From positions 43,864 through 107,863 of the forward strand of contig CALVMD010000006.1 in NCBI GenBank assembly GCA_944342025.1: 64,000 bases of DNA. Reading direction: 5' to 3'. Below the pieces are notes generated by a model that was not told where the DNA came from, searched no databases, and saw nothing but the letters and a program-made list of their open reading frames with translations. Source of the DNA: an uncultured Clostridia bacterium. Its GTDB lineage: Bacteria; Bacillota; Clostridia; Christensenellales; Borkfalkiaceae. This document shows, one piece after another, positions 1,919-6,129 of the stretch. Both the position numbers and the translations under genes were made by a program. The stretch's first letter is position 1, and every line of letters begins with the position of its first letter.

Positions 1919-2836
1919 CTAGCCTTCCAGGCTTTCCAAATACAGCGAGGCGTTCGTCGCGGCGATCGCCCCGTCGGAAACGGCGGTGGAAACCTGCCGC
2001 ACCGCCTTCGTACGGCAGTCGCCCGCCACAAACACGCCGGGCGTGCGCGTCTTGCAGCTCTCGTCCGCGATGATGTAGCCCGCCTCGTCCAGATCGGCGA
2101 CGTTCGCAAACGCCGCGTTGTCGGGCACCTGCCCGATCGCCACGAACACCGCGGGGATCTCCTGCCGGCAGAGGTTTCCGTCCTTGTCGGTGTACTCGAT
2201 GGCTTCCAGCTCGTTTTCGCCGATAAAATCGACGACGCTCGTGTTCGGGCGCACTTCGACGTTTTCCTTGGCGCGCACCGCCTTTATGAGGTTCGCGTCC
2301 CCGAAAAATTTGTCGAACAGGGTATACATGTACACCTTTTTGCAGTAGCCGGAAAGCAGCAGCGCGTATTGCAGGGCGGTGTTGGCGTCGCCGACCAGCG
2401 CCACTTCCCGTCCCTTATAGAACGGCCCGTCGCACACGGCGCAGTAGTAAACGCCCTTGCCGATTAAATCCTCGCGCTCGCGCCTGGTTTTCAGGTGCTT
2501 GTGTTTCACGCCCGCGGCGATGATCACGCTCCTGCCCTCATACTGTCCGTATTCGGTATGCACGGCAAAGTCGCCCTCCGCCCGCTTTTCGATGCGGACG
2601 GCCCTGTCGATCTCCACCTCCGCGCCCAGCGCGTCGATCTGTTCGTACAGATTGTCCGCAAACGCCTCGCCGCTGATCTCTTTGATGGAGGGAAAGTTTT
2701 CAAGGCGGGGGGACGTTGCGATCTGCCCGCCCAGGCTCTCTCCTTCCAGGACCAGTACTTTTTTTCCGTTGCGCAAAGCGTAGAGCGCGGAGGTCATGCC
2801 TGCCGCGCCCGCGCCGATGATGATCATGTCGTACAT
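1919..2836 (-). CDS. trxB: Thioredoxin reductase
   Basis: FAD- and NAD(P)H-dependent thioredoxin-disulfide reductase of 305 residues, the normal length for the low-molecular-weight family. An N-terminal Rossmann motif (GAGAAGMTSA, residues 8-17) binds FAD. The redox-active pair is Cys132 and Cys135 in CAVCDG. A second nucleotide-binding loop (VGDANTALQ) and the terminal FAD motif (GVFVAGD) follow. The gene begins one base after the nrdD stop, so both are on one transcript. NrdD carries a fused thioredoxin-like domain, so the most economical reading is that this enzyme re-reduces it. General thioredoxin or glutaredoxin-like proteins could also be substrates. Confidence 0.93.
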   Translation of the reverse strand: MYDMIIIGAGAAGMTSALYALRNGKKVLVLEGESLGGQIATSPRLENFPSIKEISGEAFADNLYEQIDALGAEVEIDRAVRIEKRAEGDFAVHTEYGQYEGRSVIIAAGVKHKHLKTRREREDLIGKGVYYCAVCDGPFYKGREVALVGDANTALQYALLLSGYCKKVYMYTLFDKFFGDANLIKAVRAKENVEVRPNTSVVDFIGENELEAIEYTDKDGNLCRQEIPAVFVAIGQVPDNAAFANVADLDEAGYIIADESCKTRTPGVFVAGDCRTKAVRQVSTAVSDGAIAATNASLYLESLEG

Positions 2837-2837
2837 A

Positions 2838-5201
2838 TCAGCCGATACTCTCGATGTATTTGCGGATCTCGCTCGCGTTGTCGTACGTCTTGAACCCGTC
2901 GCCGTCCGGAACGAGCAGGGAAGGCGCCTTCTTCACGCCGTATTGGCGCGTCGCCGCCGCGTCCTGTTCGGCGTTGACGATCCTGTACTTGACGCCTGCC
3001 TTGTCCAGCATCAGTTTGCTCGTCTTGCAGTTGGGGCAGCCGTCGCGCGTGAACAGAACGGGGCCGTCCAGCGCGGGCGCCGCCTTATCCGCGCACGCTT
3101 CCGCGTGCAGGGCGTGCGAATGTTTGAGTGTGGAGTGCGAGATGTCGTATACCTTTCTGTCCTTGAACTCCTGCGACTTGCCGTCGTTCCAGTTCTGCAC
3201 GGGGCGGTAATAGCCGGTTATGCGGCTGTACACTTCCGTCTTTGCGCCGCAGTGCGGGCAGGTGAACTGTTCGCCTGCAAGATAGCCGTGCTCTTTGCAG
3301 ATGGAATAGGTGGGCGAAAGGGTATAATAGGGCAGTTTGTAATTTTCCGCGATCTTTTTCACCAGCGCCGCCGCCGCTTTCCAGTCGGGCAGCTTTTCCC
3401 CGAGGAAGGTATGGAACACCGTGCCCGAGGTGTACAGCGTCTGCAATTCGTCCTGAATATCCAAAGCGTCGAACACGTCTTCGGTATATCCCACGGGCAG
3501 GTGCGAGCTGTTCGTATAATAGGGGGTGCCGTTTTCGTTGGCGGTGATGATGTCGGGGTACTGCTCCTTGTCGTGCTTGGCAAAGCGGTAAGCGGTGGAT
3601 TCTGCGGGGGTCGCTTCCAGATTGAAAAGATCGCCGTACTCTTCCTGATAGTCCGAAAGCCGCTCGCGCATGTGGTTGAGAACGCGCTTTGTGAACTCCT
3701 GCGCCTCTTTATGCGTCATGTCTTTGCGGATCCAGCGCGCGTTGAGCGCCGCCTCGTTCATGCCGACGAGGCCGATCGTCGAAAAGTGGTTGGCAAAGGT
3801 GCCGAGGTACCGTTTTGTGTAGGGGTACAGCCCCTCGTTGAGAAGTTTCGTGATGACGGTGCGCTTGGTGTTGAGCGAGCGCGCCGCGATGTCCATCAGC
3901 TTGTTCAGGCGGCGCATGAACTCCTCTTCCGTCTGCGAAAGGTAAGCGATGCGCGGCATGTTGATGGTCACGACGCCGACCGAGCCCGTCGATTCGCCGC
4001 TGCCGAAATATCCGCCCGACTTTTTGCGCAGTTCGCGAAGGTCGAGGCGCAGGCGGCAGCACATGCTGCGGATGTCGCTCGGTTCCATGTCCGAATTGAT
4101 GTAGTTGGAAAAATAGGGGGTGCCGTACTTCGAGGTCATCTCAAACAGCAACCGGTTGTTTTCGGTGTCCGACCAGTCGAAATTTTTGGTGATGGAATAG
4201 GTGGGGATGGGGTACTGGAACCCACGCCCGTTCGCGTCGCCTTCGATCATGACTTCGATGAACGCCTTGTTCACCATGTCCATCTCTTTCTGGCAGTCTT
4301 TGTATTTGAAGTTCTGTTCTTTGCCCCCGACGATCGCAGGCAATTCCGCAAGGTCGTTCGGCACCACCCAGTCGAGCGTGATGTTGGAAAAAGGCGCCTG
4401 CGTGCCCCAGCGGCTGGGGGTGTTCACGCCGTAGATAAAGCTCTCGATGCACTTTTTGACCTGATCGTAGCTGAGATTATCCGTCTTTACGAAGGGTGCG
4501 AGGTAAGTATCGAAAGAGGAGAACGCCTGTGCGCCCGCCCATTCGTTCTGCATGATGCCGAGGAAGTTGACCATCTGGTTGCAAAGCGTTGCAAGGTGCT
4601 TTGCGGGCGCCGACGTGATCTTCCCCGGGATGCCGCCCAGCCCTTCCTGAATGAGCTGTTTCAGGCTCCACCCCGCGCAGTAGCCCGTCAGCATCGAGAG
4701 GTCGTGGATGTGGATGTCCGCGTCGCGGTGGGCGCGGCCGACCTCTTCGTCGTAGATCTCCGAAAGCCAGTAATTGGCGGTGATGGCGCCGCTGTTGGAG
4801 AGGATCAGCCCGCCGACCGAATAGGTGACGGTGGAGTTTTCCTTCACGCGCCAGTCGGTCGCCTTCACATAGCTGTCCACGAGCTTTTTGTAGTCGAGGA
4901 CGGTGGATTTCATGTTGCGGATCTTTTCGCGCTGTTTGCGGTAGAGGATGTAGCACTTGGCAACGTCCGAATACCCCGCCTGGATAAGCACGCTCTCCAC
5001 GCTGTCCTGAATGTCCTCCACGGCGATCTTTTGGTTTTTGATCTTGGGTTCGAAATCCGCCGTCACTTTCAGCGCGAGCATGTCGATGATGCTCGGGTGA
5101 TACTGTTTCGCCTGCGCTTCGAACGCCTTGGTGATCGCAGCCGAGATCTTTTTTATGTCGAACTCCGATATTTTGCCGTCTCTCTTGATAACTTGGTACA
5201 T
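2838..5201 (-). CDS. nrdD: Class III anaerobic ribonucleotide reductase with fused thioredoxin-like domain
   Basis: Oxygen-sensitive ribonucleoside-triphosphate reductase of 787 residues that makes dNTPs under anaerobiosis. An N-terminal ATP-cone (about residues 1-90, beginning MYQVIKRDGK) provides allosteric control. The catalytic barrel follows. The C-terminal region has a Cys-rich metal site (CPHCG) and the glycyl radical loop, with the radical glycine near residue 663 in ITGYYRPV. After the loop, about residues 713-787 form an extra thioredoxin/glutaredoxin-like domain with Cys722 and Cys725 in CPNC. Class III enzymes of the E. coli type use formate as reductant; other subgroups use thioredoxin or NrdH. 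The fused domain plus adjacent trxB argues for the second type. The gene has its own promoter, with NrdR and DnaA sites upstream. Confidence 0.95.
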   Translation of the reverse strand: MYQVIKRDGKISEFDIKKISAAITKAFEAQAKQYHPSIIDMLALKVTADFEPKIKNQKIAVEDIQDSVESVLIQAGYSDVAKCYILYRKQREKIRNMKSTVLDYKKLVDSYVKATDWRVKENSTVTYSVGGLILSNSGAITANYWLSEIYDEEVGRAHRDADIHIHDLSMLTGYCAGWSLKQLIQEGLGGIPGKITSAPAKHLATLCNQMVNFLGIMQNEWAGAQAFSSFDTYLAPFVKTDNLSYDQVKKCIESFIYGVNTPSRWGTQAPFSNITLDWVVPNDLAELPAIVGGKEQNFKYKDCQKEMDMVNKAFIEVMIEGDANGRGFQYPIPTYSITKNFDWSDTENNRLLFEMTSKYGTPYFSNYINSDMEPSDIRSMCCRLRLDLRELRKKSGGYFGSGESTGSVGVVTINMPRIAYLSQTEEEFMRRLNKLMDIAARSLNTKRTVITKLLNEGLYPYTKRYLGTFANHFSTIGLVGMNEAALNARWIRKDMTHKEAQEFTKRVLNHMRERLSDYQEEYGDLFNLEATPAESTAYRFAKHDKEQYPDIITANENGTPYYTNSSHLPVGYTEDVFDALDIQDELQTLYTSGTVFHTFLGEKLPDWKAAAALVKKIAENYKLPYYTLSPTYSICKEHGYLAGEQFTCPHCGAKTEVYSRITGYYRPVQNWNDGKSQEFKDRKVYDISHSTLKHSHALHAEACADKAAPALDGPVLFTRDGCPNCKTSKLMLDKAGVKYRIVNAEQDAAATRQYGVKKAPSLLVPDGDGFKTYDNASEIRKYIESIG

Positions 5202-5254
5202 AACCTCTCCTTTCCCCGCAAATTGTGGATGATTTCCTTTGTCGGTAGGCTTTC

Positions 5255-5283
5255 ATTATAGCACCGCCACCCCGCAATGTCAA
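5255..5283 (-). promoter_or_regulatory. Consensus sigma-A promoter of nrdD-trxB
   Basis: Read on the minus strand, TTGACA (5283-5278) and TATAAT (5260-5255) are both perfect and are separated by 17 bp. It lies about 55 bp upstream of the nrdD start, so nrdD-trxB can be transcribed independently of nrdG. The NrdR boxes lie directly upstream of the -35 element. Confidence 0.88.
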
Positions 5284-5290
5284 CAGGTTG

Positions 5291-5306
5291 TGCCAAAATC
5301 TTGTAT
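5291..5306. promoter_or_regulatory. NrdR box, promoter-proximal
   Basis: The 16-mer TGCCAAAATCTTGTAT fits the core of the NrdR consensus (acaCwAtATaTwGtgt). It starts 32 bp from the second box, i.e. with 16 bp between boxes. That is the three-helical-turn pairing known for NrdR operators. It sits just upstream of the nrdD -35 element. Confidence 0.7.
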
Positions 5307-5317
5307 AAAAAAATAAA

Positions 5318-5350
5318 GTTATCCACAATATCTTGTGTATTGTGGATAAC
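5318..5350. promoter_or_regulatory. DnaA-box palindrome overlapping a second NrdR box
   Basis: A perfect 13-bp inverted repeat (5318-5330 with 5338-5350, 7-nt centre) contains two perfect DnaA boxes, TTATCCACA at 5319-5327 and its complement at 5341-5349. A 16-mer NrdR box (CCACAATATCTTGTGT, 5323-5338), differing from consensus at two weak positions, overlaps the left DnaA box. A further DnaA-like 9-mer with one mismatch lies in the nrdD leader at 5224-5232. DnaA control of RNR genes is known for E. coli nrdAB; its use here is inferred from the sites. Confidence 0.75.
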
Positions 5351-5445
5351 TCTCGATGTTTCCCGCCGTTTCACGCATGAAAGAGAATCACATATGCGTT
5401 TTTTGTATCGCCGCTTTTTGCGCCGCGGGAGGGACCCGTTTATCG

Positions 5446-6129
5446 TCATTCTCCGCGGATCTTCGCGCTCGGGATATAGGGCAAAAGCAGCCGTTTGAAC
5501 GCCTCCAGTTCTTCGTCCGCAAAGGGGGTCAGCCCGCGCCGCAAAACGGCGTCCGAATCGCGGAAGTTCTGCAAAAAGTAGCGTTTGGCCCCTTTCAGCC
5601 ATTGTCCGATGCGAACCATGTCTTCCCCGCGGTGCAGTTCCTTTACGACGGTCGTGCGGAATTCGTACTCCGCGCCGCCGTTCATGAGGAATGCGGCGCT
5701 CTCCCGTATCTTTTGAAGGTCGACGGGCGCACCCGCCGTCTTTTCGTACTTTTCGGGAGAGTTTTTGATGTCCATCGCCACAAAGTCGACGAGTTTTGCC
5801 TCGGCAAGCGCTTTCAGCCTGTCGGGGAAGGAACCGTTCGTGTCCAGTTTCACCGCATAGCCCAGCTTTTTGATCTTTTCGAAAAAGGGCGCAATGTCCG
5901 CGTGCACGAGCGGTTCGCCGCCCGATACGCACACTCCGTCCAAAAGCCCCCGCCGCCTTTCGAGGAAAGAGAAAAACTCTTCCTCCGCCATGCCGCATAC
6001 GCCCGCGTCGAGGATCTCGCCGTTCTGGCAAAAAGGGCAGCGGAAATTGCACCCGCTCAGAAAGACTGTGCAGGCAACTTTTCCGGGGTAATCCAAAAGA
6101 GTGGTTTTCTGCAATCCCGCGATCTTCAT
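5446..6129 (-). CDS. nrdG: Anaerobic RNR activating protein (radical SAM)
   Basis: Radical-SAM activase that installs the glycyl radical on NrdD using S-adenosylmethionine and a 4Fe-4S cluster. The cluster motif is Cys27, Cys31 and Cys34 in CNFRCPFC, and a SAM-binding GGEP segment (VCVSGGEPL) follows. At 227 residues, with an opening of KIAGLQKTTLLDYPGK type, it matches the longer NrdG2-like activases rather than the ~155-residue E. coli NrdG. That fits the non-formate type of NrdD encoded next to it. It is transcribed toward nrdD on the same strand with a 244-bp gap, and has its own promoter. Confidence 0.93.
   Translation of the reverse strand: MKIAGLQKTTLLDYPGKVACTVFLSGCNFRCPFCQNGEILDAGVCGMAEEEFFSFLERRRGLLDGVCVSGGEPLVHADIAPFFEKIKKLGYAVKLDTNGSFPDRLKALAEAKLVDFVAMDIKNSPEKYEKTAGAPVDLQKIRESAAFLMNGGAEYEFRTTVVKELHRGEDMVRIGQWLKGAKRYFLQNFRDSDAVLRRGLTPFADEELEAFKRLLLPYIPSAKIRGE

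Follow-up and report, generated by a model that had tools for sequence, protein, structure and literature searches.

Is the anaerobic ribonucleotide reductase of an uncultured Clostridia bacterium under the control of the replication initiator DnaA as well as of NrdR? The question is raised by the promoter of its nrdD gene, where NrdR-like boxes and DnaA boxes partly lie on top of each other. Most of what is known on how bacteria match dNTP supply to replication comes from E. coli, whose nrdD has DnaA sites apart from its NrdR sites. A preliminary description of the clostridial DNA proposed that NrdR and DnaA share or compete for this promoter. In what follows the window is the whole stretch of DNA that was analysed, which is 64,000 nucleotides long, and positions without a further label count from its first letter.

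The nrdD gene and its promoter

The nrdD gene is on the minus strand at 2838..5201 and encodes a class III anaerobic ribonucleotide reductase of 787 aa (PRK08270, 1149.5 bits; TIGR02487, 534.5 bits). The protein has an N-terminal ATP-cone and a C-terminal glutaredoxin-like domain (Pfam matches NRDD, ATP-cone and Glutaredoxin), the latter at residues ~715-754. A thioredoxin-reductase-like gene lies directly downstream on the same strand (2836-1919). It scores 276.3 bits against TIGR01292, which is under the cut-off of 343.45 for that family. Since the C-terminal glutaredoxin-like domain is joined by this neighbor, the region 1919-5201 suggests that NrdD has its own electron supply. Upstream of nrdD and co-oriented with it is a gene for an nrdG2-type activating enzyme (5446..6129, minus strand; TIGR02495, 207.6 bits).

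The nrdD promoter is a consensus promoter, just as the preliminary description had it, and is of the sigma-70 type. The -35 element TTGACA (5278..5283) and the -10 element TATAAT (5255..5260), both on the minus strand, are separated by 17 bp and match at 12/12 positions, and there is a TG before the -10. The position of the -10 puts the start site near 5248. Relative to this inferred start the NrdR boxes are centred at about -82 and -50 and the DnaA boxes at about -97 and -75.

A conserved NrdR operator

Two NrdR-like 16-mers spaced 32 bp start to start had also been described, and both are indeed present, with a 16-bp spacer between them. The distal one, box 1 (ACACAAGATATTGTGG; 5323..5338, minus strand), matches at 15/16 positions. 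The proximal one, box 2 (ATACAAGATTTTGGCA; 5291..5306, minus strand), is degenerate and matches at 11/16. All box scores in this paper are measured against a 16-bp consensus that we take to be that of NrdR. Box 2 is weak in the window, yet its position is that of better boxes in the near relatives L002-L004.

The distribution of this pair was examined in 40 congeneric genomes. nrdD is found in 40/40; the upstream sequence reaches the gene start in 38 and could be scored in 37. G016 and G030 were left out because the nrdD start is absent from their matches, and L006 (from G003) because the script found no -35. By eye, the last 270 bases before nrdD in L006 show no NrdR box. The best pair was taken for each upstream, and spacings of 30-33 bp (spacers of 14-17 bp) were tried. 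A tandem NrdR operator is conserved across the genus, in 37/37 scored upstreams. Its boxes are spaced 32 bp in 9 and 33 bp in 28 (a spacer of 16 or 17 bp), and against our assumed consensus box 1 scores 14-16/16 and box 2 10-15/16.

NrdR proteins are reported to bind box pairs with 14-17 bp spacers (PMC12051234). The pair described here resembles the canonical tandem operator of that source in having two 16-bp boxes and in having spacers of 16-17 bp that fall inside this range. It differs in that box 2 does not sit on the -35 in 24/37 promoters but lies further upstream. There are two layouts: box 2 starts either 23-34 bp before the -35 (24/37) or 10 bp before it, overlapping the -35 (13/37). 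Judging by its spacing and its position at a ribonucleotide reductase gene, we argue that the pair is an NrdR operator in the window and in the genus, where NrdR is predicted to bind and repress.

The NrdR gene is present in 39/40 congeneric genomes. It was not found in the window's own assembly, which is 77.9% complete. G018 has two NrdR genes above the curated cut-off (G018:C34:17539-17979 and G018:C71:8862-9299). At L164 an NrdR-like box (986-1003) overlaps the -10 ahead of an NrdR-like frame that was recognised by eye. The place of the box on this -10 suggests NrdR self-regulation at L164.

DnaA boxes on the operator

The window has two perfect DnaA boxes (TTATCCACA) next to box 1. The promoter-proximal one is at 5319..5327 on the plus strand and has 5 bp in common with box 1. 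The distal one is at 5341..5349 on the minus strand and is clear of box 1, and the edge of conservation falls at this box. They form an inverted pair 13 bp apart. Both are held in an inverted repeat (5317..5351) with 14-bp perfect arms and a 7-base loop, which is terminator-like on the minus strand. The two perfect inverted boxes and their overlap with the distal NrdR box were correctly described before, but the palindrome is 35 bp long and not 33. The window has no tandem double DnaA box of the E. coli type (2-3 bp apart).

The word TTATCCACA occurs at 20 sites in the 1.57 Mb genome versus 4 for the reversed word, and 2 of the 20 are at nrdD. DnaA boxes have a degenerate form, TTWTNCACA, in which positions 3 and 5 are variable. 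This looser form is not enriched window-wide (4 found versus 2.19 expected, and 18/100 shuffles reach 4). Elsewhere in the genome four perfect DnaA boxes stand ahead of a Band-7 domain gene (L040 1437-1610; G000:C4:118936-119109).

For the genus, a DnaA box was defined as TTATNCACA, TTGTCCACA or TTTTCCACA within -60..+25 of NrdR box 1. By this definition 18/37 scored congeners have DnaA boxes, from one to five per nrdD promoter, and 19/37 keep the NrdR boxes without nearby DnaA boxes. The preliminary description looked to relatives for conservation of both motifs, and to close relatives for loss of the DnaA boxes alone. The NrdR pair proved to be general, but the DnaA boxes did not. Their absence beside a kept NrdR operator holds for those 19 species, though not for the nearest ones on the nrdD tree (L002-L005 and L008). 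It must be noted that L020 was counted as free of DnaA boxes although it has TTGTCCACA at +43 and, at -84, a perfect box; so was L018, with two off-consensus boxes. The same holds for L009 and L033, each with the off-consensus TTATCGACA, L033 being in the layout where box 2 overlaps the -35.

DnaA boxes are found in 18/24 species with box 2 upstream of the -35 versus 0/13 with box 2 overlapping it. When any one-mismatch box is counted this becomes 19/24 versus 1/13. A tie between promoter layout and DnaA boxes (Fisher 1e-5) is not established against kinship, which leaves 2 independent pairs on supported branches. On a quick nrdD tree the presence of DnaA boxes changes state at least six times.

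The arrangement of the boxes varies too. Tandem DnaA boxes at nrdD step by 11-12 bp, and among the 18 DnaA-box species the tandem gap of 2-3 bp is found in L019, L028, L029, L035 and L037. Tandem pairs are common genus-wide (34/40 genomes). Close inverted pairs of TTATNCACA and TGTGNATAA are found at 30 places in 18/40 genomes, and the reversed control pattern in one genome only, once per strand. Twelve of these places are at nrdD, 12 adjoin a DUF1256 gene (an assignment for which Pfam was run on two of the twelve) and 2 adjoin a SIR2 gene; 1 more has the box spacing of a SIR2 place and 3 are elsewhere. The cluster beside the SIR2-family gene recurs in L125 and L136, and box spacing is identical in L125 and L127. 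The DnaA gene itself is present in 39/40 genomes, in 37 of them above the cut-off.

Ten of the 18 species have an inverted pair around box 1 and were compared column by column. The flank ahead of the distal box (columns -22 to -3) has a pairwise identity of 0.18-0.40, versus 0.64-1.0 inside the box. These species were picked for having boxes, so the identity within the boxes is partly by construction; the contrast with the flank is unaffected.

Alternative explanations

One can imagine a scenario where the NrdR half-site TTGTG has been extended by chance into 9-mers that look like DnaA boxes. Box 1 already provides five bases of the DnaA box that overlaps it, and some of the 200 permuted 9-mers that were tried score high (the highest count is 25 hits and the widest spread 24 of 37 species). 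However, the DnaA word scores 41 hits spread over 20 species, whereas the averages for permuted 9-mers are 0.86 hits and 0.81 species. In the distal 60 bp beyond box 1, TTATNCACA is found in 16/37 species, whereas 500 dinucleotide shuffles give 0.05 on average and never more than 1; this is not a clean probability since the species are related. The paralogue nrdD2 gives a further control. Its upstreams were taken from 19 genomes (L160 was left out), and 15/19 have an NrdR-like box of at least 14/16, yet TTATNCACA is nearby in 1/19. The shuffles, the permuted 9-mers and the nrdD2 control lead us to reject a chance origin, which would be extremely improbable. Judged from sequence, the DnaA boxes at nrdD are not chance. 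Another scenario is that the palindrome serves nrdG, the gene upstream, as an intrinsic terminator and resembles DnaA boxes only incidentally. nrdG is co-oriented and upstream of the palindrome, and the 14-bp stem with its 7-base loop is followed by a T-run (TTTATTTTTTT) on the nrdD strand, so the window does have a stable hairpin directly followed by a T-run. The 81 bases of 5285-5365 fold with an MFE of -20.4 kcal/mol (z -5.24), and the terminator scan gives the stem 4 G-C pairs of 16. A terminator-like hairpin lies on box 1 in 14/37 species (7/18 DnaA-box species, 6/13 in the -35-overlap layout and 1 other), and 5 of the 6 hairpins in the -35-overlap layout, which are without DnaA boxes, have GTGAAAC arms. 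Counted by species, the terminator candidate is the box-1 hairpin only in 7, an independent upstream one only in 17, both in 7 and neither in 6 (n=37). But 11/18 DnaA-box species have no such hairpin, and a terminator leaves the tandem DnaA boxes of several species unexplained. The mismatches point the same way. A single-mismatch scan found 24 perfect boxes, and in 15/17 of the imperfect boxes the mismatch is at position 3 or 5, where DnaA boxes are degenerate (nominal P 1.4e-8, uncorrected for kinship). The box-1 hairpin is retained with other arms in some species and is broken in L008 and L016, where a change at position 5 ends the stem pairing but keeps the DnaA consensus. An incidental resemblance is quite unlikely in our opinion. 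It is plausible that ending nrdG transcripts is an added function of the palindrome in the window's species.

The boxes could also be an origin-proximal DnaA titration cluster, as in Bacillus subtilis, with no part in nrdD regulation. This is possible because the boxes are near the likely origin region. The cumulative GC-skew of the window's contig (C6) has its minimum near 24 kb and the nrdD boxes are at 49.2 kb. The likely origin region has ParA-, YidC- and Jag-like frames (named by eye), a DUF1256 gene and a DnaA-box pair at 13.5 kb, so that the nrdD boxes are ~25-36 kb from it. Among the 29 genomes with a DUF1256 match, 5 have it on the same contig as nrdD, at a distance of 31-48 kb. In Bacillus subtilis the removal of six DnaA-box clusters outside the origin leads to early initiation (PMC5295017). 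The boxes here resemble these oriC-proximal clusters in being groups of DnaA boxes near, not inside, the origin, and differ in being on or beside an NrdR operator and in numbering one to five. The same review also states that no Bacillus subtilis clusters had been identified that play a significant role in the control of initiation. For titration, two boxes would seem a small number. They are locked to box 1, with a box at offset +11 in 12/18 DnaA-box species, including all 10 inverted-pair species compared. By the -60..+25 definition they are absent in 13/13 species of the -35-overlap layout (L033 has one off-consensus TTATCGACA). In G002, G027 and G034, which are 3 of the 5 same-contig genomes, the position is kept and the boxes are gone. 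The placement on box 1 therefore favours a promoter role over titration, and titration without nrdD regulation is an unlikely explanation. As for dnaA, it is on a different contig (G000:C2:143468-144778) from the likely origin region (G000:C6, L170-L172).

Distribution beyond the genus

At least 594 nrdD loci were confirmed outside the genus, and the best 80 of these (74-81% identity in the best segment) were examined. An NrdR pair of at least 25 of 32 is found in 36 of these 80. An upstream DnaA box (TTATNCACA) is found in 1 and not in the other 79. The nearest records outside the genus, among the matches listed, are mostly Clostridia metagenome assemblies. The fused pattern ACAANATNTTGTGNATAA, which is blind to tandem layouts, was found in 9/396 genomes of the order, a sample that included two genomes of the window's genus. 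Among these 9 loci the window alone combines a close nrdD with two DnaA boxes. In L163 and L167 a single TTATNCACA is followed, after ~80-90 bp, by a frame that is only distantly nrdD-like (22% and 33% identity).

A wide distribution of DnaA boxes at nrdD is not borne out by the 1/80 outside the genus, in the best 80 of at least 594, and the 9/396 in the order. Since 19/37 congeners are without the boxes as well, we argue that the NrdR operator is the older element and that the boxes are a lineage-specific addition to it.

A probable composite operator

The reading that fits best is that NrdR and DnaA share the control of nrdD or compete for it, because the 9-mers appear to evolve like DnaA sites and occupy the NrdR operator. 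The earlier proposal of such control survives to this extent, but what it described would be a feature of one lineage. On balance we think that nrdD has a composite operator made of the promoter, the NrdR pair and the DnaA boxes, and that DnaA would bind there and ease NrdR repression.

The steps would be as follows. An NrdR tetramer would grip both NrdR boxes, and DnaA bound at 5319-5327 would lie over the end of box 1. The two could not both be fully seated, since 5 bp are common to the DnaA box and box 1. When DnaA is plentiful NrdR repression would become looser, with DnaA acting as an anti-repressor or as an activator centred near -75 and -97. dNTP supply would thereby be tied to replication. 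The direction of the DnaA effect, which we infer, is the least certain step, and joint repression is possible. In the window's species the palindrome may have a second role in terminating nrdG transcription.

One can take this further. In the fullest version there is one overlapping NrdR/DnaA operator at which DnaA is a direct anti-repressor; it would have changed at least six times in the genus, box 2 would have to clear the -35, and the operator would sometimes be the nrdG terminator too, which makes three tasks. We offer this version only tentatively, and as a whole it is rather doubtful.

Comparison with E. coli

DnaA at nrdD is known from E. coli, where it binds upstream of the gene with a ChIP-seq coverage of 62 relative to control, and according to the authors DnaA sites had earlier been predicted there (PMC11317965). 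NrdR also binds E. coli nrdDG (PMC12176259). Since E. coli nrdD is bound by both, the link between DnaA, NrdR and nrdD is already known; the overlapping layout appears to be new. The preliminary description had thought the whole composite architecture novel, and this would stand for the overlapping layout only. Literature searches of open-licence papers found no published account of DnaA boxes at nrdD in Clostridia. Nor did they find the overlapping inverted-pair layout, its upstream placement or its repeated change within one genus.

The best NrdR-like boxes of MG1655 nrdD (13/16 each against the consensus we assume) start at -208 and -177 from the ATG, and TTATCCACA is at -112 and -35. The DnaA sites of E. 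coli nrdDG are thus downstream of the NrdR boxes with no overlap, unlike those of the window. At the E. coli ChIP site the DnaA boxes form a tandem double, in the window an inverted pair. Both promoters are of class III and have NrdR boxes and DnaA sites (PMC11317965). The 11-12 bp steps of the congeneric tandem forms are also like those of the E. coli double DnaA boxes (PMC11317965). E. coli without DARS2 has more NrdD protein, but in the authors' view DnaA worked unchanged as a transcription factor when its titration or nucleotide state was altered (PMC12371093). E. coli nrdAB is another likeness in that DnaA and NrdR act on one ribonucleotide reductase promoter (PMC12176259, PMC12371093). 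The difference is that nrdAB encodes a class Ia enzyme. Olliver et al. 2010 reportedly dealt with a DnaA-ATP switch at this E. coli promoter.

All this suggests more than one origin for the control of class III reductases by DnaA. The overlapping motifs belong to a group of uncultured gut-type Clostridia. Within it the NrdR operator is conserved while some congeneric promoters have DnaA boxes and others do not, which makes a natural series for the study of DnaA-NrdR competition and of dNTP control in anaerobes.

Other palindromes at nrdD and nrdD2

Palindromes are also found at these promoters without DnaA boxes. In L014, L022-L026 and L036, a long palindrome is centred on box 1 and has arms of the GTGAAAC/GTTTCAC type, mostly with a T-run. 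Operator and likely nrdG terminator would here be one. In the nrdD2 upstreams (L141-L159) the stretch from the NrdR box to the -10 contains an inverted repeat that is conserved and resembles CTGTTGCAAAAGCGACAG. By eye, it usually precedes a T-run in the 19 upstreams. Because it is located before the -10, this repeat may be the operator of an unknown regulator.
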